DNA of 64,000 bases, from assembly GCA_905181835.1 (NCBI GenBank), contig CAJIZF010000003.1, positions 146,074 through 210,073 on the forward strand, in the 5' to 3' direction. The stretch is from an uncultured Flavobacteriaceae bacterium. GTDB taxonomy: Bacteria; Bacteroidota; Bacteroidia; Flavobacteriales; Flavobacteriaceae. This document shows, one piece after another, positions 5,417-22,326 of this stretch. Below the pieces are notes generated by a model. That model did no database searches, was not told the origin of the DNA, and saw nothing but the letters and a program-made list of their open reading frames with translations. The position numbers and the translations under genes were made by a program. Position 1 is the first letter of the stretch; every line of letters starts with the position of its first letter.

Positions 5417-6625
5417 TTGCTTCAAGTCCGTGACACACCTGTCGATAGACTATGTGGTACTCAAATGAAAACACTGCCAACTATAAAGAATGCGTGGCTT
5501 TACTTAGTCAATAATAAAATCCATGATTATGGTACAATGGATTCCATACCCAATTTAGACGCTGACAAAATTATTAATTGTAGCGGAAGCATCGTTTTAC
5601 CAACTTGGTGTGATTCTCATAGTCATCTTGTATATGCCGGTAATAGAGAACAAGAATTTGTAGATCGAATAAATGGTCTTTCTTATCAAGAAATAGCGGC
5701 CAATGGTGGTGGAATAATTCATAGTGCAAAAAAACTTCAGGCGACCTCTGAACAAGACTTATTCACTCAATCTGAAAATCGTTTAAATCAAGTAATGAAT
5801 TTAGGCACAGGTGCTATCGAAATAAAATCAGGCTACGGTCTTACCCTCGATGCAGAGCTAAAGATGCTTAAAGTCGCCAAACAACTAGGAGAAAAACATC
5901 CTATTAAAGTGAAAACTACTTTTTTAGGGGCGCATGCAGTACCTCCAGAATTTAAGAACAACAAACAAGGATACTTAGATCACATTTGTAATGATATGTT
6001 GCCCAGAGTGGCAGAAGAAAAGCTAGCTACGTATGTAGATATTTTTTGTGAAAAGGGTTATTTTTCTGTAGCCGATACGCACCAATTATTAAAAGAGGCT
6101 AAAAAATATAATTTAATACCAAAAATACATGTCAATCAATTCAATGCAATTGGAGGTGTCGCAGAAGGTGTAAAACACCAGGCACTTAGTGTAGATCATT
6201 TAGAGGTATTAACCGATGATGATATTTTAGCTTTAAAAGGATCTATAACTATGCCAGTAGCTTTACCTTCCTGCTCCTATTTTTTAGGCATCCCTTACAC
6301 TCCTGCTAGGAAAATTATTGATGCTGGGTTACCATTAGCACTTGCTACAGATTACAATCCAGGCTCGACCCCTAGCGGTAATATGAATTTTGTGGTAGCT
6401 ACCGCATGTATAAAAATGAAATTAACACCAGAAGAAGCGATTAATGCTGCTACGATCAACGGAGCTTATGCAATGGGGCTTAGTGGCAGTCATGGTAGTA
6501 TCAGTAAGGGGAAAAATGCTAGTGTAATTATTACCAAAGAAATTCCATCCTATAGCTATTTACCATATGCTTTTGGAAGTAACTTAATTCAACAGGTGAT
6601 CATTAATGGTCAGTTGATTCTCTAA
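5417..6625 (+). CDS. hutI: Imidazolonepropionase HutI, N-terminus frame-broken
   Basis: Third enzyme of histidine degradation, opening imidazolonepropionate to N-formimino-glutamate. The amidohydrolase metal motif CDSHSH is at residues 65-70 counted from the TTG at 5417; HVNQFNAIGG, the basic THF/substrate-pocket region and ATDYNPGSTPS follow in normal order. The TTG start is probably not the real one. An ATG at 5386 opens with MKILLT in another frame, while the codons just before 5417 read IKELLQVRD, a typical HutI continuation. One extra base between about 5392 and 5407 would join them to a normal 412-residue protein. ftcD follows 53 bases later, so the two are likely co-transcribed. Confidence 0.9.
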   Translation: MLQVRDTPVDRLCGTQMKTLPTIKNAWLYLVNNKIHDYGTMDSIPNLDADKIINCSGSIVLPTWCDSHSHLVYAGNREQEFVDRINGLSYQEIAANGGGIIHSAKKLQATSEQDLFTQSENRLNQVMNLGTGAIEIKSGYGLTLDAELKMLKVAKQLGEKHPIKVKTTFLGAHAVPPEFKNNKQGYLDHICNDMLPRVAEEKLATYVDIFCEKGYFSVADTHQLLKEAKKYNLIPKIHVNQFNAIGGVAEGVKHQALSVDHLEVLTDDDILALKGSITMPVALPSCSYFLGIPYTPARKIIDAGLPLALATDYNPGSTPSGNMNFVVATACIKMKLTPEEAINAATINGAYAMGLSGSHGSISKGKNASVIITKEIPSYSYLPYAFGSNLIQQVIINGQLIL

Positions 6626-6678
6626 ATTTATAAACCAATAACATTAATTATTTAAGATTAGTATTTAATAAATAACAG

Positions 6679-8370
6679 ATGCAAAAACAACTCATAGAAT
6701 GTGTTCCAAATATTAGTGAAGGTCGTGATTCAAAAATTATAGAAATCGTATCGAAAATCGTTGAAACAGTCGAAGGGGTGACACTTCTAGATGTCGATCC
6801 TGGAAAGGCAACTAACCGGACCGTTATTACCTTTGTAGGAGAACCTCAGTTAGTTATTGAGGCAGCTTTTCGATTGATTAAGAAAGCAGCAGAGCTTATC
6901 GACATGAGTAAACATACTGGAGAACACCCACGTTTTGGTGCTACGGATGTTTGTCCGCTTGTTCCTATTTCTGGAATTAGTCTGGAAGAAACCGCTCAAT
7001 ATGCACATCAATTAGGAGAACGAGTTGGAAAAGAATTAGGAATTCCTGGTTATTTCTATGAAAATGCTGCTAGAGAAGAGAAAAGGAAAAATCTTGCAAA
7101 TTGCAGAAGTGGCGAATACGAGGGGCTATCTGCTAAATTATCAGATCCCGATTGGAAACCTGATTTTGGTTCTGCTAAATACAACAACGAGGTAGCAAAA
7201 ACAGGTGCCATCGCAATATCTGCTCGTGACTTTTTAATTGCTTATAATGTAAATTTAAATACCACTTCAACTCGAAGAGCAAACGCAATAGCTTTTGATA
7301 TTCGAGAAGCAGGTAGAATTAAAAGAGATGGAAATCCGATTACTGGTAAAAAAATATTAGACGCTAACGGAGAACCCGAACGAGTACCCGGAAAACTTAA
7401 AGCCGTGAAAGGAATCGGTTGGTTTATCGATGAATACGGAATTGCTCAAATATCTTACAACCTAACCAATATATCGATTACTTCCATGCATGAAGCTTTT
7501 GATGAAAGTTGTAAAGCAGCATTGGCAAGAGGAATTAGAGTAACAGGTTCTGAGATAATTGGATTAATCCCACTACAAGCAATGTTGGATGCAGCCGATT
7601 ATTATTTAATCAAACAAAAACGATCTCTAGGAATTTCAGAAAGTGAAAAGATAAAAATTGCTGTTAAATCTCTAGGATTAGATGACTTAAAACCTTTTCA
7701 TCCAGAGGAAAAGATCATCGAGTATATGTTAGAAAATGATAAAAAAAAATTAATTGATTTTAAATTAAATGATTTTGCAGACGAAACTGCTGGAGAGTCT
7801 ATGGCTCCGGGTGGTGGTTCTATTTCGGCATATGTTGGAGCTCTCGGAGTTTCTTTAGGAACCATGGTAGCTAATTTGTCTGCCCACAAGGCTGGCTGGG
7901 ATGAACGCTGGGAATTTTTCTCAGATTGGGCTATAAAAGGTCAGGAATATAAAGAGCAGCTTTTATTTTTAGTTGATGAAGACACCAATGCTTTTAATAA
8001 AATTATCGATGGTTTTAGAATGCCTAAGGATACTGATTTAGAAAAGAAAATTAGGTTAGACGCCATAGAAAATGCTACCAAATATGCAACCGAAATTCCA
8101 TTTAAAGTAATGGAGACCTCCTTTCAATCAATGGAGATTATGCAAGCTATGCTAAAGGATGGTTTAAAAAATTCACTATCCGATGCAGGAGTTGGAGTAC
8201 TTTGTGCCAGAGCGGCTGTAATTGGAGCTTACTTTAATGTTCGAATTAATGCTAAAGACATTAAAGACAGGGATTTTGCAACTGTTATTTTAAATAAAGC
8301 TGCCACTATTTATAAAAAAACTATTGCATTAGAACAAGAAACTATTTCTTTTATCGATTCACAAATGTAA
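6679..8370 (+). CDS. ftcD: Bifunctional glutamate formimidoyltransferase / formimidoyl-THF cyclodeaminase
   Basis: 563 residues. Residues 1-310 form the formiminotransferase, opening with ECVPNISEGRD and carrying HTGEHPRFGATD (79-90), whose His83 matches the catalytic histidine of the family. After a linker, residues 345-560 form the cyclodeaminase, with the GESMAPGGGSISAY signature near 373-386. It moves the formimino group from formiminoglutamate to tetrahydrofolate and releases ammonia, giving methenyl-THF. The two-domain fusion, as in vertebrates, is common in Bacteroidota. It directly follows hutI and supplies glutamate and one-carbon units from histidine. hutH and hutU are not in this window. 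Confidence 0.95.
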   Translation: MQKQLIECVPNISEGRDSKIIEIVSKIVETVEGVTLLDVDPGKATNRTVITFVGEPQLVIEAAFRLIKKAAELIDMSKHTGEHPRFGATDVCPLVPISGISLEETAQYAHQLGERVGKELGIPGYFYENAAREEKRKNLANCRSGEYEGLSAKLSDPDWKPDFGSAKYNNEVAKTGAIAISARDFLIAYNVNLNTTSTRRANAIAFDIREAGRIKRDGNPITGKKILDANGEPERVPGKLKAVKGIGWFIDEYGIAQISYNLTNISITSMHEAFDESCKAALARGIRVTGSEIIGLIPLQAMLDAADYYLIKQKRSLGISESEKIKIAVKSLGLDDLKPFHPEEKIIEYMLENDKKKLIDFKLNDFADETAGESMAPGGGSISAYVGALGVSLGTMVANLSAHKAGWDERWEFFSDWAIKGQEYKEQLLFLVDEDTNAFNKIIDGFRMPKDTDLEKKIRLDAIENATKYATEIPFKVMETSFQSMEIMQAMLKDGLKNSLSDAGVGVLCARAAVIGAYFNVRINAKDIKDRDFATVILNKAATIYKKTIALEQETISFIDSQM

Positions 8371-8386: not shown

Positions 8387-8812
8387 TTAAACATCATAAT
8401 AATCTAATTTTAGATGATTTATTTTCATATCTATCATCTTGGCTAAGAATTTTTTGTTATTTCGATAATTTCTATTTTTCTTAAACTTTATAAAATGACC
8501 ATTTGAATGTATGCTAAATCTTTTATTACTATAAGTGACAAGACGGTAATAAGGTACAATCCATGAATAACGGTCTAATTTATTACCAAAATGAATAATG
8601 ATTCCCTTATCTCGTAACTCAATATTGGCATAACTTATTGAATTGGGGTGAAGATTTTCGGGTTTTAATTGTGTACTTAATTCTTCTATAATTAATCGAC
8701 TCGAACCAACACCTCGCATTTTAATTTTTCTAAAAAGTGAATAAGGAGGTCCGACTGAAAGGGCACTTTCTTTTGAGTAGTCTTTATTTTTGTAGGTCGT
8801 ATTAAAAAGCAT
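8387..8812 (-). CDS. Uncharacterised 141-residue protein at the end of the photolyase operon
   Basis: No family recognised. It is soluble, basic and rich in aromatic residues, with no signal peptide or membrane helix. The middle part alternates strands (ISYANIELRD, GIIIHFG, WIVPYYRLVTY, RFSIHSNGHFIKF) and ends in a short helix, a pattern that could fit a small PH-like beta-barrel; this is inference only. It starts 2 bases after the stop of the FeS-BCP-like photolyase and is the last gene of a run with almost no spacing, so it is almost certainly co-translated with the light-related genes. Its role there is unknown. Confidence 0.7.
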   Translation of the reverse strand: MLFNTTYKNKDYSKESALSVGPPYSLFRKIKMRGVGSSRLIIEELSTQLKPENLHPNSISYANIELRDKGIIIHFGNKLDRYSWIVPYYRLVTYSNKRFSIHSNGHFIKFKKNRNYRNNKKFLAKMIDMKINHLKLDYYDV

Positions 8813-8814
8813 TG

Positions 8815-10302
8815 TTAGTTTTTTAAGTTTTCTAGAAATAACTCTCCATTTGAGAGATGTTGATGTTGTTTTTCTTGAGGCATCTTATCGAACATTCTAA
8901 CCAGCATTCCTAAACGAGGATTTGATAAAAAGAAATCTCGATGAACATTCATAAACCGCCAAAATAAGCCATCCCAAACAGATTGCCATTCTCCTTTTTT
9001 ATAATTACTCATTTTCATTAAATAATTACTACCGCTTATATAAGGTTTTGAGGCTAACAACCCTCCATCAGCAAATTGACTCATACTGTATACATTTGTT
9101 ACCATAACCCAATCATAGCTGTCAATAGATAATTCCATAAACCAACGATAAACCTCATCTGGATCAAACTCACATAATAACATGAAGTTACCGAGCACCA
9201 TCAAACGTTCAATATGATGGCAATAACCTGTTTCTAACAACTTTTTAATGGTAAGGTCTATAGGGGGAATACCCGTGGTACCATCGTAAAATGATTGTGG
9301 TATCTTCTTTTTAAAGTTCCAGAAATTAGTAGTTCGTGCATCAACTCCACGAGCTTCGTAAATACCTCTTACAAATTCTCGCCATCCAATAATCTGTCGA
9401 ACAAAACCTTCTGTTGAATTAATGGGAATATCGTTTTGCTCTGCGAATAAAAGGCATTCTTCAATGATTTTTTTAGGACTAATTAAACCAACATTTAACA
9501 TGGGAGTTAAAACACTATGGTTTAATATAGAGTTTTCAGCTACAATTGCGTCTTCATAAATACCAAAATCCATAAATCGGTACTCAAAAAATTGATGAAG
9601 CCACTTATTCGTCAAATCAAAATTAATTGGGTAAAGTGGCGTATCAGTAAGATTTCCTAAATGATCTGAGAAATTTTTAGCAACATAGGTTTTAGCTTCT
9701 TCATAGAAGGGATCGGTATCAGGAAAAATAATTGGAGGAGGTGTTTTTGTTTTTGGATATTTTTTTCTGTTCTGGGTATCATAAGTCCAAGAGCCTCCTT
9801 CGGGTTTACCATCTGTTTCGAGAAGAATTCGATTATTTTTTCTTTGTTCAATATAAAAAGAAGTTTGGTTATACTTTTTTTTGTCCAATCTAAAAAAAGA
9901 AGTCAGATCGTCTTTTGAGTTTAAAAATAAAGGGGAAGTATATTGTTTATGTGTAAACCCTTCTTCTTTTAACCCTTTGTTTAAACGCTTTTGCAACCAA
10001 TTATCTGTGGGATCAATATAGTTGATATGGGTATACCCTTTGCGTTTTAATTCTGGAATAAGAAAACGAATATCTGCTATTTTTTCAGTAGATTCAATAT
10101 ACGTTATCGCAATATTTTTTTCTTTTGTTACATAATCTGCATACCATTTCATTGTTGCTCTGTGAAAAGCAATTTTTTGTTTATGAAACTTGTAGTGTTT
10201 GAAAAATAAATATTCTTCAACTAAATAAATAGGCTCTTTATTTTCAAAAATTGGAGAATTTTGAAATAATTGATGTGGAAATACTACGTTTAAACTTTTC
10301 AT
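8815..10302 (-). CDS. FeS-BCP-type cryptochrome/photolyase-related protein lacking cluster cysteines
   Basis: 495 residues in the PhrB/CryPro (photolyase-related) family: an N-terminal alpha/beta domain (1-150) opening VVFPHQLF, then the helical FAD-binding domain with [12 protein letters not shown] and SMSQFADGG. Known members repair (6-4) photoproducts or act as light sensors and bind a 4Fe-4S cluster through four cysteines. Here the C-terminal region where YCxxC and ACPFN are expected reads [19 protein letters not shown], without cysteine, and the earlier ligand site also appears to be Leu. A cluster is therefore unlikely; it fits a cluster-less branch. Its start codon overlaps the upstream DUF2256 stop (ATGA). 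Confidence 0.85.
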
Positions 10303-10427
10303 TTGTTTTTTCTGCAGCGTTCGCTACAATATTTTACTTCTTCCCAGTCTTTTTTCCATTTTTTTCGCCAACTAAAAGGACGATCACATACTGGACAAAT
10401 TTTCTGAGGAAGATTTTTTTTATTCAT
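10299..10427 (-). CDS. DUF2256 family 42-residue zinc-ribbon-like protein
   Basis: A 42-residue gene. It reads [15 protein letters not shown] at residues 10-24 and YCSERCR at 33-39, the pattern of DUF2256 proteins, which are small C-x2-C / C-x3-C proteins often found beside cryptochrome or photolyase genes. The four cysteines could bind zinc; the function is unknown. Its TGA overlaps the ATG of the following photolyase-related gene as ATGA, and it begins 2 bases after the flavin reductase stop, so it is translationally coupled on both sides. Confidence 0.85.
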
Positions 10428-10429
10428 GT

Positions 10430-11056
10430 TTAAAATTTTGGCACTTGTTCTACTCGTGCATATGGATGTGTTTCAATTTTTTTTAAGGTATAGTAACTGT
10501 TCAGCCCTGAAATTCCTACACTGTTTGTCAGCTCTAAATCAATGTCATTATTGACAATAGCACTTTCTGGGATGATTAGTTGTTCTACTTCACCAATAAC
10601 CATGATGGTACCATTATTTTTTATATCTAAGGATTCTTTAAAACACATTCCTATTTTTAAATTACTTTCTTTAACAAAGGGAGCTTTAAAATTTCCTTGA
10701 TATTCCTCAGTTAGTTTGCAACGTTCAAATTCTGATACTTCGGAATCAAATTTAGCAGAGGTATAATGTGCCTTTTTTATAAATTCAGGATGAATATGAT
10801 TTATGGTATACTGTCCAGTCTTTTGGATGTTGGTATACGTATGTCCAAACTTTAATCTTCTGGGTCTTGATATAAATCCCAATAGCGGGGGATTACTACC
10901 TAAGTGTACAACAGAACTAAAAATAGCCAAATTTGTTTTACCCTCATCGTCAATAGTACCAACTAAATTTGCCGGCTTAATTCCAGTAATTGAATTGATG
11001 ATTTTTAATCTCGATACACGATCTAATTCTTGTATTTGTTTATTAGTATATCTCAT
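10430..11056 (-). CDS. Flavin reductase family protein (FMN-binding split barrel)
   Basis: 208 residues. The split-barrel flavin-binding core covers residues 15-190, with [23 protein letters not shown] and a conserved [14 protein letters not shown] segment near 64-77. Family members bind FMN and reduce flavins with NAD(P)H or act as flavoprotein oxidoreductases. Placed between two flavin-dependent photolyase-type genes with gaps of 1 and 2 bases, it plausibly supplies or keeps reduced flavin for them; that role is inferred from position only. No signal peptide is present, so it is cytoplasmic. Confidence 0.85.
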
Positions 11057-11057
11057 A

Positions 11058-12515
11058 TTAACGATTATTTACATGTGTTTTAATTATACGTTTCTTCTCT
11101 TTTAGTACTATTGGGTGTTTTTTATGATTCCATATTTTCGAGCGTGCAGTTTTGGCACTTTCCTTTAAATCTACAATAGGCTTGGGATAATGAGTGCCAA
11201 TAACCACATCATAAAATAGTTGTTCCATCGCTGTCATATTCCATGGCTCGTGGATGTGCGAAGTAGGAATTTCGGCTAATTCAGGAACCCATTTTTTTAT
11301 AAACAAACCTTTTGGGTCATGTTCATATGAATTTTTAACTGGGTTGTATAAACGAATAGTGTTTATTCCGGTTGTTGCGGCTTGCATCTGAAATTGAGGA
11401 TAATGAATTCCTGGCTCGTAATCTAAAAAAAGGTTTGCGAGATGATAAACACCATCACGCCAATCTTGGTCTAAATTCATTGTAAAAAATGAAACTAACA
11501 TAGCACGCATTCTAAAATTAATCCAGCCCGTTTGAATAAGTGCACGCATACAAGCATCAATAAGAGGGTACCCAGTTTTACCAAGTTTCCATGCTTCGAT
11601 ATAGTGTTGATTTTTTTCATGGAGTAAAAACTCATAACCTTTGTTAATACAATGGGTCTCGTAAGTACATTCTACCTCAAATTTTTGTATGAAATGACAA
11701 TGCCACTTTAATCGAGTTAACATTCCATTAAAAGCTCTTTTATTGTTTTGTCGATTTGGATGTTTACTAACAAATTGAAAGACTTGTTTTATACTCAAAT
11801 TTCCCCAAGCTAAAAAAGGAGATAGCCTACTGCAACTCGATCTACTCTCGTGAGGTTTCGATATATGTTTGTGATAATTAAAACCTCGAAGTTGAGTAAA
11901 AGTGTTTAAATATTTCCAAGCATTACGAGCTCCTGCTGGTTGAAATTGTTTTGGATATTTTTTAAGTGTTTTTTCAAATTCTTCAGGTAACAAAAAGGGA
12001 TGGTTTATTTTTTTAAGTTTTGCACAAGAGTACGTATTTAATATCTGAGGTTCGTTCATTGTTGCAAACCATTTCTTGTTCCAATCTACTCTATTTTTTA
12101 TCCCCCTTAGAATACCATCTCTCTGAAATTGAGACCACAAAATATGATTTTTTTCAGAAAATGATTCAATACGTTGATCTCGCAGCCATGTTTTTGCTAT
12201 GCCACTTTCACGATAACTAAAGATATTTTTAATTTTATAATATTGGTTTAAAAAAAGAAATACATCTAAAGCCTCAGCATAAAATATATCAACACTCCGG
12301 TTGTATTTTATTAGCTCCATATCGAGTACTTGAATCGAATGGTAAATAAATTGCAAATGTCTATTGCTTGTATCAAAATGATTGATCAAGCTTGGCTCAA
12401 AAACAAATATGATAAGATAAGGCTGGCCCGATTTTTCTGCGAGAAATAAAGGTTCATGATCTTGAGACCGTAAATCTCGCTTTAACCAAACTATATTAAT
12501 TTCTTTTTTTATCAA
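11058..12515 (-). CDS. Cryptochrome/deoxyribodipyrimidine photolyase
   Basis: 485 residues with the full photolyase layout. The N-terminal alpha/beta antenna-binding domain begins [18 protein letters not shown], and the C-terminal FAD domain contains [39 protein letters not shown] and [13 protein letters not shown]. The flavin-cradling arginines, aspartates and tryptophans typical of the class are in place, so it should be a CPD photolyase or close cryptochrome. Repair activity cannot be separated from sensing by reading alone. The start codon overlaps the preceding gene by 4 bases (ATGA), and the flavin reductase follows after 1 base. Confidence 0.9.
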
Positions 12516-13614
12516 TAGATTAGTTCTTTTTTACATTTTTTCCAATAGGAGAAAAAACTTGGATAGTACCCTTTAACATCAAAAATAAAATCTCTTGGAA
12601 CTTTAATTCCTGTGTAATGTGAGTTTAGTGGATGTTCCTTATAATTGACTTCGCTTGGAGCGTGATCTTTGATGAACTCATTAAACTCACCGACGTACAG
12701 CTGAATGTTATCAATATTATTTTTACTAAATTCCAACATAAAGTTCATACTATTAAGTGATATTGGATATTGATTAAAATGTGAGGGTTCAAGTAAAAGT
12801 ATTCTATTGGCAAAATTTCTTGATCCCAAAGAGGATCTAAATTATAAAAGTTATAGATATAAGTAGATTTTTTCTTATCAATTTTGATGGATTCTTTCTC
12901 AGGCATAGGTGTTTTTAGTAAACAGGAATCCGTCTCTAAGAGTTCTTTTGGTATTTTTAAAGTATCAAAATCGTCATAAGAGATATCTAAAAAGGTATTG
13001 CTTTGTTTTGTGTGACAATACTTATTTATGTTGTCTTGATTTGCAATATATTTTTTATTGGAGTTAGTTCCGGCTACCCATTGCCAACTCAAAGCGTTAC
13101 TTGCCCAATCAGCATCTAAAAGATGATAATACATCCACTTTGCAGGAAAACTCCAATGACTTTGAGCTACATTACATGCTAATGAGGCAATATACATTCG
13201 AAGATGATTGTGTAAGTAACCATTATTGTAAAAGTTAGTAATAGCAGTATCTATAGCTTTTATACCTGTATTGGCTTCTAAAATAGATTTCGAGATTGCT
13301 GTGTTAGATACTTTTAGCTGTTTGTTTTTTAAATCAAAATTAATTTCATTTTCCTTAGCTATCCAAATCTGTTGCCAATAATCTCTCCAAGTAAGTTCTT
13401 GGATAAACTTTTCTGATTGTTTAACCGAATAACCTAAATTTAAGACTTGTTGAAATACATCTTTAGTAGAAATTATACCTCTTGAGATATATGGAGATAG
13501 ATAAGAAACTGAGCCATCAACGTAATTTCTAGTATTGGTGTATTTTACCGGATTTATCTGCTGTAAACGCTCTTGAACTTCCGAAAAGAGTATAGGAAAC
13601 TTTATTATTTTCAC
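12512..13614 (-). CDS. Short FAD-binding photolyase-like protein, frame-broken
   Basis: The first part (289 residues as read from 13614) starts directly with the photolyase FAD-binding domain: [37 protein letters not shown] and [11 protein letters not shown]. The usual N-terminal antenna domain is missing. After DPLWDQE the frame ends, while the next frame continues with [14 protein letters not shown] and a 100-residue alpha/beta-like tail, ending with ATGA overlap into the photolyase. One missing base near 12812-12826 (probably one A of an AAAA run) restores a 367-residue protein. Intact junctions and conserved residues on both sides argue for a sequencing error or a very recent break. Function unknown; probably flavin-based light response. 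Confidence 0.8.
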
Positions 13615-13713
13615 ATTAACATTTTGTGTAAATATATAAAATGTTTAACTGTTTTGCAATTTTGTTAAACAATGACTTTTTAAAAAATATTAACTTAACA
13701 GTAAATAAGCATT

Positions 13714-14583
13714 TTATCGTTGCATTTTAAAAATGACGAAAGCATGAGGAAAAGTAATGGAAGCTAATAAGGCAACAAAAAGAAGGTTAAATAATGCAGT
13801 ATTGTCAGCAGTATAATAAGAGAGCATACAAATACCAATAACTGACAAGCCCCAGTACAAAATAGAAACTCTTAAGTATTTGATAATATTGGTTAAATTA
13901 GTTTGACCATAAATATTAATTATCTGATCATTGAGAGATGGTAATGCGTGCCATACTATAAAATAGATAGCAAAAGACCATAATAAAGTTGAATTAGTAA
14001 ACAATATGTAAAATAAAAATACATAAGCCACTTCTTCAAATAGTTGAATTAATGAATTTTTATTGTTAGAGTAAACCAGGTAGAATGTTAAAAGACTTAT
14101 TAAATTTATAAATAAAAAATAACTAAAAAAAGTGGTACTTAAGTTAATATTTGTGATATCATTTATAATTACTATTACCTCATTACTGTGTGTTTGAAAT
14201 ATTAAAAAAAATACGAGTAGACCATAAATTAGGTACAGAAAATATTTTGACCAATGCTTTGATTTAATTTTTTCTGCCAAATGTTGTTCGCCAAAATGAT
14301 AACCACTAAATAAAATAAAGAGCAAAAAGCCTATAGTTGGAAAAATTAGAAAAAAACAAAAACTAAATAGTACTACAAAAACATAAATAGAAAGTTTAGT
14401 TCTAAAAGTGTATCTTATTTCACCACTAAAATTTCCAATAAGTTTTAGATCGTTAGAGCCGTGAAGAATACCAAGACTCAAAACAAAAATATAAGCAAGT
14501 AAATTTTCAATATCAATTCCGAATTGTGTAGTAACCCACAAAAAGAAGAAAGTTAGTAGTAATTTAACAGTTTTTAAATTCAA
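13714..14583 (-). CDS. blh: Brp/Blh family beta-carotene 15,15'-dioxygenase
   Basis: 289 residues, almost entirely membrane-embedded with about eight hydrophobic segments. LGILHGSNDLKL near residues 37-48 and FGEQHLAE near 98-105 carry the conserved histidines expected to hold the iron; IVWHALPSL (about 207-215) provides another. Blh cleaves beta-carotene into two retinal molecules. It lies divergent from proteorhodopsin with 113 bases between the starts, the classical pairing that supplies the rhodopsin chromophore. No carotenoid biosynthesis genes (crtE, B, I, Y) are in the window. The photolyase-type genes follow on the same strand after 99 bases. Confidence 0.92.
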   Translation of the reverse strand: MNLKTVKLLLTFFFLWVTTQFGIDIENLLAYIFVLSLGILHGSNDLKLIGNFSGEIRYTFRTKLSIYVFVVLFSFCFFLIFPTIGFLLFILFSGYHFGEQHLAEKIKSKHWSKYFLYLIYGLLVFFLIFQTHSNEVIVIINDITNINLSTTFFSYFLFINLISLLTFYLVYSNNKNSLIQLFEEVAYVFLFYILFTNSTLLWSFAIYFIVWHALPSLNDQIINIYGQTNLTNIIKYLRVSILYWGLSVIGICMLSYYTADNTALFNLLFVALLASITFPHAFVIFKMQR

Positions 14584-14663
14584 TTTTTCTTAATTTGATA
14601 ATAAATATATTAAAAAAATAACAAAATAATAATAAAAGTATTTTTTCTTGTTTAATTATTTGT

Positions 14664-14671
14664 TATGTTTG
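14664..14671 (+). promoter_or_regulatory. Candidate -7 box of the proteorhodopsin promoter
   Basis: TATGTTTG fits the Bacteroidota -7 consensus TAnnTTTG and ends 25 bases before the proteorhodopsin ATG. An upstream TTG at 14648-14650 is only 13 bases away, shorter than the usual 17-23, so the -33 element is uncertain. Confidence 0.4.
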
Positions 14672-14696
14672 TTTAACTTTTAAAAACAAATATATT

Positions 14697-15433
14697 ATGA
14701 AAACACTTTTAACTATGATTGATTTAGTTGCTGTTGGCGGCGATGTTAACGATCCAGTCAACTTTACATTCTTTATTGGATGTATGGCTATGATGGCAGC
14801 TTCTGCTTTCTTTTTTCTTTCATTAAATCAATTTGACAAAAAATGGAGAACTTCTGTTTTAGTGTCTGGTTTAATTACTTTTATTGCAGCAGTACATTAT
14901 ATGTACATGCGTGATGCAGCTATGGATGGAGATGTAATGAACATTACCGCATTTAGATATGTGGATTGGATTCTTACAGTCCCATTAATGTGCGTTGAAT
15001 TCTACTTAATCCTTAAAGTAGCAGGCGCAAAGCAAAACTTAATGTGGAAGCTTATCGGTTTATCGGTTGTAATGCTAGTTACAGGATACATGGGAGAATC
15101 TGGTGGGGTGACGCTGTAGTTTGGGGAACAATATCTGGTTTAGCTTATTTCGTAATCGTTTACGAAATATGGTTAGGTGGAGCTGCGAAACTCGCTAAAG
15201 AAGCTGGTGGAGATATATTACATGCACACAAAATCCTTTGTTGGTTCGTACTAGTTGGTTGGGCAATATACCCTGTTGGTTATATGGCAGGAACAGCTGG
15301 ATGGTATGGTGCTGCAGGTGAATTCTTCGGAATGAATCTAGATATGCAAGTATTATACAATATTGCAGATGCAATTAACAAAATTGGATTTGGTTTAGTA
15401 ATCTATTCTTTAGCAGTTAAGAAAACAGCTTAA
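14697..15433 (+). CDS. Proteorhodopsin, green-tuned proton pump, frame-broken
   Basis: Seven-helix retinal protein. Counting the repaired 245-residue protein, Asp90 and Glu101 are the proton acceptor and donor with Thr94 between them (the DTE pump motif), His67 is the Asp partner, Met98 sits at the spectral-tuning site (green type) and Lys229 in DAINKIGFG is the retinal Schiff base. As written, the frame stops after GYMGESGGVTL (15119), while another frame continues DAVVWGTISG to 15433. One missing base in GGTGGGGTGAC (15102-15111), probably a T giving GVD, repairs it. Both halves are fully conserved, so I treat it as functional. A strong terminator follows. Confidence 0.93.
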
Positions 15434-15560: not shown

Positions 15561-16453
15561 ATGACTAATAAAAACAATATAGTAAAAACTCTTTTTGATC
15601 TATTTCTATCTGAAGACACTCGCCTCAAGACAGAAAAAATAATATTAAAAATAGCCTTGGTGAGTTTTTTTATTCATTTAGTTATCATTTATTTAATGAA
15701 GTTTGATTTTTTAAGTTTCTCATCAAACTCAGAGCTATTTATTAATCCAATTTCAGCGATATATACACCATTTTCATTTATTCTTATCTATGAAGTTTAT
15801 CTATTGATTTACTACCTACCTAAATCATTTACAACATACATAACTAAGCAATATGAAATTATAACATTAATTATTATAAGAAAGTTGTTTAAAGATTTAT
15901 CTGCTCTTGAGCTTACTGAAAATTGGTTTGAAATTAAAGGTGATTTGCAGTTTACCTACGATTTGATTGCTTCTCTTTTACTATTTTATTTAATATTTTT
16001 ATTCCAAAAACAAGGGAAAATAAAATCAATACAAGAAGTAAACATCAAACCTTTTATTGAAAAGTTTGTGAATAAAAAGAAGTTAATTGCAGTTATTTTG
16101 GTGCCTTTGTTTTTTTTTATGGCCCTATACACTCTTATTGATTGGTCATCTGGCATTTCAATTGTATCCAACGATCTTTCTAACTTTTCAAAGTATTAAC
16201 AATTTATTTTTTGATAAATTTTTTACGGCACTTATTTTGGTGGATGTCATTTTACTATTAATATCATTTTTTTACACCGATCAATTTCATAAAATAATAA
16301 GAAATTCTGGGTTTATTATTTCTACCATCTTAATAAGAATGTCTTTTGCGTGTAAACGGGTTGATAAGTACCATATTAATCCTTGTAGCTGTTCTTTTTG
16401 GACTAGCAATTATAAAGATTCACAACAGTTATGAGAAAAATGAATTGACCTAA
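15561..16453 (+). CDS. Unknown polytopic membrane protein, two frame breaks
   Basis: No family recognised. The first frame gives 212 residues with hydrophobic segments at about 26-46, 61-86, 133-148 and 176-190. It then stops, but a shift in the TTTT at 16186-16189 continues NFQSINNLFFDKFF and a further helix (LILVDVILLLISFF). A second shift near AAA at 16354-16356 leads into GLISTILILVAVLFG and ends at 16453. Removing one base at each site gives 296 residues with about six helices. Two independent shifts that each recover a membrane helix point to indel errors. It follows proteorhodopsin beyond a terminator, so a shared role is only a guess. Confidence 0.65.
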
Positions 16454-20633: not shown

Positions 20634-22326
20634 CTATCTTATTAATTTTTTATACTTGATGCGTTTAGGTAATAAATCACCACCAAGACGTTTCTTTTTG
20701 TTTTCCTCATATTCACTAAATCCACCTTCAAAAAAATAGACTTGACTATCTCCCTCAAAGGCAAGAATGTGAGTACATACTCGATCTAAAAACCATCGAT
20801 CATGTGAAATAACTACTGCACATCCAGCAAAGCTTTCCAATCCTTCCTCCAGAGCACGTAGAGTGTTAACATCTAAGTCGTTCGTAGGTTCGTCTAATAG
20901 CAAGACGTTTCCTTCTTCTCTTAATGTCATTGCTAAATGTAGGCGATTTCTTTCTCCACCTGAGAGCATAGAAACTTTTTTATTCTGTTCACTTCCACCA
21001 AAATTGAAACGACTCAAGTAAGCCCTTGAATTTACTTGTTTTCCTCCCATCATTATTAATTCCTGACCATCGCAGAAATTTTGCCATATCGATTTTTCCG
21101 TATCGATATTTGCGTGAGCTTGATCTACATAAGCAATCTGAGCAGTTTCGCCAACATTAAATTCTCCGTTGTCAGGCTTTTCTTGTCCCATAATCATTTT
21201 AAAAATAGTCGTCTTTCCAGCACCATTAGGACCTATAATTCCGACAATCCCTGCTTGCGGCAGGTTAAAATTTAAATTTTCATACAACAATTTATCACCA
21301 AATGCTTTGGACACTCCTCTTGCTTCAATGACATTCGTTCCTAATCTAGGACCGTTTGGAATATAAATTTCTAATTTTTCATCCAACTGTTTTTGGTCCT
21401 GACTCATTAACTTGTCATAATTATTAAGCCTTGCTTTTTGCTTCGTTTGTCTTCCTTTTGCGCCCTGTCTGACCCAATCCAATTCTCGTTCTAGTGTTTT
21501 TTGACGTTTAGATGCCGTTTTACTTTCTTGTTCTAATCTTTTAGACTTTTGATCTAACCAAGACGAATAAGTTTCCTTTCCAAGGGATTCCTTCTCCCCT
21601 ATCCAACTCTAAAATCCAACCAGCTACATTATCCAAAAAATACCGATCATGGGTAACAGCAATTACTGTTCCTTTATATTGAGACAAATGATGTTCTAAC
21701 CAATGGACACTTTCTGCATCTAAATGATTCGTCGGTTCATCAAGTAGCAAAACGTCGGGTTCTTTTAACAATAACCTACACAAGGCAACTCTTCTTCTTT
21801 CTCCTCCAGACAAGACTTTAATTGGAGTGTCTCCCGGAGGAGTTCGAAGAGCATCCATAGCTATTTCTAATTTGGTATCTAACTCCCAAGCATTGGTAGC
21901 ATCAATTTTATCCTGTAATTCAGCTTGTTTAGTCATGAGTTCTTCCATTTTTTCAGGATTCTCGTAGACTTCGGGTAAGCCAAACATATCGTTAATTTTA
22001 TTATACGCATCAAGAACATCCACTACCTCTTGAGCGCCTTCTTTAACAATCTCTATGACGGTTTTAGAATCGTCTAATTGAGGTTCTTGTTCCAGATAAC
22101 CAACCGAATAACCATCAGCAAAAACAACATCTCCACGATAGTTGGTATCAACACCTGCTATAATTTTTAAAAGGGTAGATTTACCACTTCCATTTAAGCC
22201 TAAAATTCCAATTTTTGCTCCATAAAAAAAACTCAAATAGATGTTTTTGAGAACAGGTGTTTGTGAATTCTGGTAGGCTTTTGTAACTCCAGACATGGAG
22301 AAAATTACTTTTTTATCATCTGACAT
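20634..22326 (-). CDS. ettA: Energy-dependent translational throttle protein EttA, frame-broken
   Basis: ABC-F ATPase that binds the ribosomal E site and gates elongation according to ATP/ADP. The first half carries GLNGSGKST and [11 protein letters not shown], the second GPNGAGKTT and [11 protein letters not shown], with the DEPTNHLD and DEPTNDLD Walker B boxes. The frame as written ends at 21541 after WKGN, but the neighbouring frame continues [10 protein letters not shown] and runs to 20634. One extra base near 21567-21571 explains this; without it the protein is 563 residues, the normal length. The break lies in the linker between the two ATPase domains. EttA is normally intact in this group, so a sequencing indel is most likely. 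Confidence 0.92.

Follow-up and report, generated by a model that had tools for sequence, protein, structure and literature searches.

Repressors of the CarH/LitR type, B12 photoreceptors that act on carotenoid genes and are described in Thermus, Bacillus megaterium and Myxococcus (PMC8156234), and the class II LitR regulon of Pseudomonas (PMC9758184) are the closest described relatives of the regulatory system considered here. In the flavobacteria, Kumagai et al. 2018 (PMC5932025) found a cluster of photolyase and photolyase-related genes to be enriched in Flavobacteriia bearing proteorhodopsin (PR); the accessible portion of that report gives neither regulator nor operator and mentions neither cryptochrome nor flavin. 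Light-responsive expression of PR, cryptochrome and photolyase in Dokdonia is cited in PMC9040609, an RpoD promoter consensus ahead of PR, with no operator in the accessible text, is described for MED134 (PMC3587595), and in Chryseobacterium a LitR-like role has been speculated for a gene near crtB (PMC7064467). The literature that we searched, including sources accessible in part, yielded no regulator for the flavobacterial PR light response and neither the palindrome reported here nor a link between CarH/LitR and PR, which does not prove absence from print. We analysed computationally a window of 64,000 nucleotides from an uncultured Flavobacteriaceae bacterium (assembly GCA_905181835.1, contig CAJIZF010000003.1, positions 146,074 to 210,073), in which a compact run of photolyase genes lies next to the PR locus. 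The assembly comprises 2.30 Mb in 8 contigs and is 90.4% complete. Whereas the clustering of photolyase genes in PR-bearing flavobacteria, as far as the accessible part of PMC5932025 describes it, has already been reported, the addition made here is a predicted regulatory palindrome.

The run consists of six minus-strand genes, two of whose junctions are 4-bp overlaps and the others gaps of 1, 2 and 2 bp. In order of transcription they encode a short photolyase-like protein (SPL), a photolyase/cryptochrome with antenna and flavin adenine dinucleotide (FAD) domains (PHR), a flavin reductase-like protein, a DUF2256 mini-protein, a DPRP-domain protein and a protein of unassigned role (UNK). This packing had been noted in an initial annotation of the DNA and is borne out by the coordinates of the open reading frames (ORFs), as is the position of blh 99 bp upstream of the run and divergent from PR. 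The blh gene (13714-14583, minus strand; TIGR03753, 3.6e-44) encodes beta-carotene 15,15'-dioxygenase and lies outside the predicted unit. The key to the operon is its regulatory DNA, of which the initial annotation made no mention. The 99-bp gap between blh and SPL holds the palindrome TGTTTAAC-N14-GTTAAACA (13642-13671, minus strand), a predicted operator that the 2.30-Mb genome contains 3 times in perfect form, this copy included. A predicted -33 TTG (13657-13659) falls inside the palindrome spacer, and a predicted -7 box, TATATTTA (13629-13636), lies 5 bp past the palindrome; TAnnTTTG is the flavobacterial -7 box in the accessible text of PMC9723704. The location of the palindrome between blh and the run points to a promoter belonging to the run itself.

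When the spacer was left free at 2-30 bp, the half-sites occurred three times in the window genome, always with N14 (reversed control: 1). At 0, 1, 2 and 3 mismatches the genome held 3, 5, 1 and 40 sites, compared with 64 in total for the reversed control, so that about nine genomic sites stand out. Across 90 SPL loci we found 64 sites at up to 2 mismatches, distributed over 49 loci (2.0 expected), and the palindrome was present upstream of the operon in 39 of 80 loci from named genomes. These 80 are the best of at least 351 confirmed relatives, a choice that tilts all counts of conservation towards close homologues. The spacing is fixed: TGTTTAA and TTAAACA were separated by 16 bp 45 times, and every other spacer from 0 to 45 bp occurred at most once. 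Among 44 sites upstream of SPL, 33 had a TAnnTTT box within the next 16 bp, 26 of them at a distance of exactly 5 bp (the 44 include two L104 sites, that of PR itself and one within SPL). In PR sites, TAnnTTT[GA] fell inside the palindrome (22 of 34, of which 9 had been chosen for having a site). With the -7 box located after the palindrome at SPL or inside it at PR, a bound protein could block RNA polymerase. An E. coli-style promoter scan, which includes hexamers at 13659 and 13631, was uninformative (39 sites; 33.3 expected).

The PR gene of the window (14697-15433, plus strand; Pfam Bac_rhodopsin in both pieces of a frame broken near 15107) is preceded by a degenerate palindrome copy with 3 mismatches (14649-14678, plus strand), which includes a predicted -7 box, TATGTTTG (14664-14671). 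Two relatives, L189 and L190, carry 2-mismatch copies at the same place. Within 130 bp of PR in 15 relatives' loci, the window included, 9 had a site at up to 3 mismatches (0.14 expected) and 5 at up to 2 (0.01 expected). Of a further 29 PR loci of the family, 21 had a site at up to 2 mismatches (0.02 expected) and 25 at up to 3 (0.3 expected). They were chosen from 70 PR genomes as those with the best PR matches (30 loci, one of which had already been counted as L192) and come from 28 genera by database labels, G378 and G590 sharing one genus.

Another of the palindromes in the window genome separates a DUF4397-crtI-crtB run from a gene with MerR and B12-binding_2 domains (L156:5788-6714, outside the window; MerR_1 7.5e-11, B12-binding_2 8.1e-6). 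The product of this gene, which adjoins crtI/crtB, includes CarH among its best PDB relatives (5c8d, 7.4e-12); a search for the regulator gave one match in genome G000. This protein carries the Wx9EH motif, as do 23 of 25 readable homologues and, in a second set, 22 of 25, and ExHxxG occurs in 22 of 25 regulators including that of the window genome. The SxV/T and GG elements are not in strict form in the window-genome protein, and the strict B12 motif ExHx2Gx41SxV/Tx22-27GG was matched by none of the 25, which is why we call the regulator CarH/LitR-like. Further sites lie ahead of a run made up of CIA30, DUF2867, photolyase and short-chain dehydrogenase/reductase (SDR) genes, and a TetR-ABC1-folE-GPx-TspO run (TetR of the TetR_C_23 family; GPx, glutathione peroxidase) with a divergent Porph_ging gene. 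Still others precede DUF2452-DUF2805, with a divergent methyltransferase, a fasciclin gene and two genes without an assigned role. The sites L153:7014-7043 and L157:5849-5878 lie near such role-less genes, and one of the two has large proteins with repeated segments in its vicinity; neither is explained by a light response.

Palindrome and regulator occur together. The exact form TGTTTAAY-N14-RTTAAACA was found in 24 of the 34 relatives that have the regulator and in 2 of the 25 that lack it, amounting to 78 and 2 sites, respectively (reversed control: 4 over all 59 genomes); genome counts and site sums were made by hand. Within the genus, the proportions were 9/9 with and 1/10 without the regulator. 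Among 296 Bacteroidota genomes, an even sample including the window genome, the exact site was present in 39 of 64 with the regulator versus 2 of 232 without (likewise counted by hand; Fisher 3e-29, kinship ignored). A site was also detected in the regulator's own locus of ~4 kb in 21 of 30 cases (0.2 expected) and, in a second set, in 9 of 27 (0.1 expected). The regulator was present in 26 of the 29 PR genomes described above and in 24/24 of those of good quality.

We conclude, with a probability of roughly 0.68, that the six genes make up an operon for photorepair which is induced by light from a promoter of its own and that a CarH/LitR-like repressor controls both this operon and PR. That the signal consists of light and vitamin B12 is rated below control by the regulator. 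The initial annotation had proposed a joint light or UV response; the palindrome common to the operon, to relatives' PR genes and to carotenoid genes supports this indirectly, as does its co-occurrence with the regulator. We infer that the run is transcribed as one unit and that the repressor, a MerR protein with a B12-binding domain encoded elsewhere beside crtI/crtB, would act at an operator overlapping the operon promoter. In the dark, the repressor loaded with adenosylcobalamin would occupy the palindrome and cover the -33/-7 promoter. Light would break the cobalamin bond and the repressor would leave the DNA, whereupon photolyases, carotenoid genes and, in Flavobacteriaceae, PR would be switched on jointly. 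SPL, in which active-site residues are kept, would then repair cyclobutane pyrimidine dimers (CPDs) and the DPRP protein 6-4 photoproducts, with the DUF2256 protein as companion of the latter, and the flavin reductase might keep flavins reduced. A wider reading, in which a B12 photoreceptor of the Flavobacteriaceae gates phototrophy through a light regulon of PR, carotenoid and photorepair genes by means of a new 30-bp operator, and in which the domains of SPL are reversed, we put forward only tentatively.

Several observations weigh against control of operon and PR by this repressor. The PR site of the window is by itself within chance (1.40 three-mismatch sites expected in the window), and a site at up to 3 mismatches is missing from 6 of the 15 PR loci of relatives. 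For the operon, 41 of 80 loci had no site at up to 2 mismatches in the stretch searched, and the same held for 35 of the 72 whose upstream sequence reached 800 bp or more; the exact site is likewise missing from 25 of the 64 regulator-bearing Bacteroidota genomes, and the failure of all 25 regulators to match the strict B12 motif belongs here too. The prediction that three PR genomes with poor sites would lack the regulator failed for two of them, as G378 and G590 carry it. In G486, which was predicted to lack it, there was no match, but this genome is only 76% complete. The four poor PR sites (G378, G486, G590 and G520) are not accounted for by absence of the regulator, except perhaps that of G486. 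To these points is added the form of the site: in the accessible text of PMC8156234, described CarH operators are 11-bp direct repeats, unlike a 30-bp palindrome. The palindrome might then be the operator of some other co-inherited regulator, a TetR protein or an unrecognised stress regulator responding to oxidative stress, and a TetR_C_23 gene does head one palindrome-bearing run (ABC1, folE, glutathione peroxidase, TspO). However, the palindrome follows the CarH-like gene over 296 genomes and within the genus, it is found in that gene's own locus in 21 of 30 and 9 of 27 cases, and palindromes that overlap promoters are typical targets of MerR proteins (PMC8156234, as far as accessible), so that we consider another regulator improbable. 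It is very unlikely that the palindrome is a mere by-product of AT-rich promoter DNA ahead of a constitutive operon for housekeeping repair. The sites do overlap promoter-like sequence and are rich in A and T, and about half of the operon loci have no recognisable copy, but shuffled sequences and the reversed control yield few or none at 0-2 mismatches, the spacer is fixed and the sites follow one regulator.

A different explanation, compatible with a light regulon, concerns the proteins: the operon would constitute one joint flavin system, its photolyases being held in the reduced state by the flavin reductase, as the initial annotation had suggested in proposing electron supply to the flavins. 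The residues bearing on this were mapped in SPL (alignment A2; 4 of 80 proteins left out as too short) and in PHR (11058-12515, minus strand; Pfam FAD_binding_7 2.6e-64, DNA_photolyase 2.9e-13), the latter in 13 proteins, namely that of the window and 12 over 470 amino acids out of 46; many of the remainder are probably shortened by start-codon choice. SPL keeps two of three tryptophans of the photoreduction chain and lacks the distal one in 76/76 homologues. In PHR the proximal tryptophan is replaced in 13/13, and four of five CPD-site positions carry R, F, A and H in 13/13, the W being retained; PHR thus has, as judged by alignment, lost CPD-site and proximal-tryptophan residues. The missing tryptophans of SPL and PHR suggest that photoreduction may be weak. 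The split-barrel flavin reductase-like protein (10430-11056, minus strand; Pfam Flavin_Reduct 1.8e-16; PDB 3fge 1.9e-52) has its gene in line in 34 of 80 loci, and in each of these it lies 0-16 bp ahead of DUF2256. Yet 46 of 80 loci have no flavin reductase in line, and together with PHR it occurs in 20 of 80 where 18.7 are expected from their frequencies (44 and 34). A tie between flavin reductase and PHR was rejected on this count, and we regard electron supply as the purpose of the operon as a possible but rather doubtful explanation.

The gene order on which the proposed photorepair operon rests recurs in Bacteroidota, in named genomes beyond chance, and the check for such conservation named beforehand thus did not refute the initial annotation. 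In line behind SPL, the 80 loci contained PHR in 44, the flavin reductase in 34, DUF2256 in 62, DPRP in 60 and UNK in 17; in front of SPL, DUF2805 was found in 50 and DUF2452 in 23. Five of 18 same-genus genomes carry the run from SPL to DPRP (G018, G010, G001, G004 and G014, the last to its contig end), four of them with UNK as well, and G006 has a truncated SPL. SPL matches at E<1e-100 were present in 17 of the 296 genomes. PR is another matter. We rejected it as a member of the operon: in the flanks examined, which reached at most 10 kb and were often shorter, PR or blh occurred at just 2 of 80 loci, L104 and L118, besides L031, and among the loci examined PR adjoins the run only in the window lineage and one other metagenome-assembled genome (MAG). 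That the run is part of a proteorhodopsin unit is therefore not supported, the palindrome moreover separating blh from the run.

Three side observations concern the surroundings of SPL. In the Flavobacteriales MAG locus L118 (2-2152), a second adjacency of PR and photolyase, a PR of ~60% identity is divergent from SPL with a 2-mismatch palindrome between them. DUF2452 and DUF2805, which precede SPL in many relatives (L042-L121), lie apart from it in the window genome behind a palindrome of their own (L158:6632-7325); the operon may thus have split and its switch been copied. Finally, SPL-PHR pairs on contigs labelled Rhodobacteraceae (L054), Opitutaceae (L097) and Opitutales (L103) may reflect either misbinning or transfer.

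SPL is not a single frame in the window assembly. Its N-terminal part with the FAD-binding domain (12745-13614, minus strand; Pfam FAD_binding_7 4.4e-21; frame broken near 12800) and its C-terminal part (12512-12829, minus strand, in another frame) are continuous in relatives, the split falling at about 12784-12811. Of the two photolyase/cryptochrome-type proteins named in the initial annotation, both are confirmed as to family by Pfam, although the first is split in this way. In relatives L031 and L032, SPL and PR each occupy one uninterrupted frame, and intact SPL homologues exist in 10 relatives. Frameshifts relative to L031 also occur at about 16105-16352 and 21571-21578, in two further genes. 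Four broken genes in a stretch common with L031 make assembly indels seem likelier than decay, and the frameshifts are probably of that origin.

FAD_binding_7 was detected in 76/76 SPL homologues and a DNA_photolyase match at E 1 in none; the best profile matches were 4u63, a class III photolyase, and 1owl. Of the active-site residues of class I CPD photolyases, E, W, N and M are conserved in 76, 76, 76 and 72 of 76 homologues, respectively, and the N at flavin N5 in 76 of 76. By its sequence, SPL is a photolyase without an N-terminal antenna domain and with an FAD domain akin to class I/III. The AlphaFold model of the Gillisia mitskevichiae homologue (76 sequences; predicted local distance difference test (pLDDT) 93.8, predicted template modelling score 0.91) has a C-terminal alpha/beta domain of five strands, with elements at 256-367. 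This C-terminus matched classical antenna profiles at hhalign E 6.6e-4 (alignment A4, built from 41 of 74 fragments), with a score of 27.89 against 27.16 for the best of 200 column shuffles. With two single antenna profiles 0/60 shuffles were as good, compared with 32/60 for the 6-4-type antenna, a domain that does not match the classical antenna domain either. Neither Pfam (10 fragments) nor a PDB profile search gave an antenna match. Foldseek aligned 183-242 columns of the model to photolyases and cryptochromes among the matches shown, which come without ranges, so that the C-terminal domain is not placed by it. A relocated antenna domain is a possible explanation of this predicted fold. Elsewhere, the window genome encodes a fourth protein with FAD_binding_7, namely a photolyase of the classical two-domain type.

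The DPRP protein (8815-10302, minus strand; Pfam DPRP 1.8e-50) matched PDB 7ykn over residues 23-493 of 495 (2.4e-74) and by this profile match belongs to the prokaryotic 6-4 photolyase family. Its earlier label 'FeS-BCP-like' (iron-sulphur bacterial cryptochromes and photolyases) stands as to family, but the clustered Fe-S cysteine loop is absent in the alignment to 7ykn. Over the 45 residues inspected at this place, 57 of 60 homologues have no cysteine; of the other three, two are truncated and one was not matched by the search pattern. The 42-aa DUF2256 protein (10299-10427, minus strand; Pfam DUF2256 1.4e-22) is encoded directly before DPRP in 57 of 80 loci, and this adjacency supports the accessory role suggested earlier, as companion of the 6-4-type photolyase. 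For UNK (8387-8812, minus strand), also proposed as an accessory, the recurrence in line in just 17 loci indicates an optional last gene. At E 0.1 neither Pfam nor NCBIfam assigned it to a family, and its AlphaFold model (pLDDT 86.7) matched mostly PH/EVH1 domains in Foldseek (best E 0.016, none at 0.001), a hint of a PH/EVH1-like predicted fold. Ending 16 bp from the end of UNK, two histidine-degradation-like genes (5417-8370; hutI-like and FTCD-like, named by eye) are arranged tail-to-tail, and they adjoin UNK in L031 and L104 as well.

The shared palindrome and the CarH-like regulator offer a testable answer to how light genes of flavobacteria might be switched jointly. With the palindrome on PR promoters of many genera and one candidate repressor, the regulation of PR becomes directly testable, and the motif can be used for listing candidate light genes in a sequenced flavobacterium. 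If the sensor is B12, then phototrophy, pigments and DNA repair of marine flavobacteria would be tied to a vitamin.

As far as the accessible text of PMC8156234 describes them, CarH/LitR repressors resemble the system proposed here in their MerR and B12-binding_2 domains, in the Wx9EH and ExHxxG motifs and in a regulator gene adjacent to crtI/crtB, and the palindrome here overlaps promoter-like boxes. They differ in having direct repeats as operators in place of the palindrome, in the strict B12 motif, to which the regulators here do not conform, and in their targets, which here are predicted to include a photolyase operon and PR. The class II LitR regulon of Pseudomonas (PplR, PmlR and LOV partners; PMC9758184, in its accessible part) likewise comprises photolyases, folE, an SDR and compact polycistrons, with two half-sites at the promoter. 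Unlike the palindrome and regulator here, its sites read TRTACA-N12-TGTAYA and its sensor is a LOV protein; PR is not among the targets described there, in contrast to the regulon predicted here. At the protein level, SPL agrees with the short photolyase-like proteins of PMC9178010 and PMC9649867, compared by their description in the accessible text only, in placing the FAD domain first, in having no N-terminal antenna and in its similarity to class I/III CPD photolyases; in SPL here, the C-terminal alpha/beta domain follows. The DPRP protein has the DPRP domain and its overall sequence in common with the FeS-BCP proteins PhrB and CryB, and differs from them in the missing Fe-S cysteines, a trait that it shares with some members such as Prochlorococcus PromaPL (PMC9178010, accessible part).

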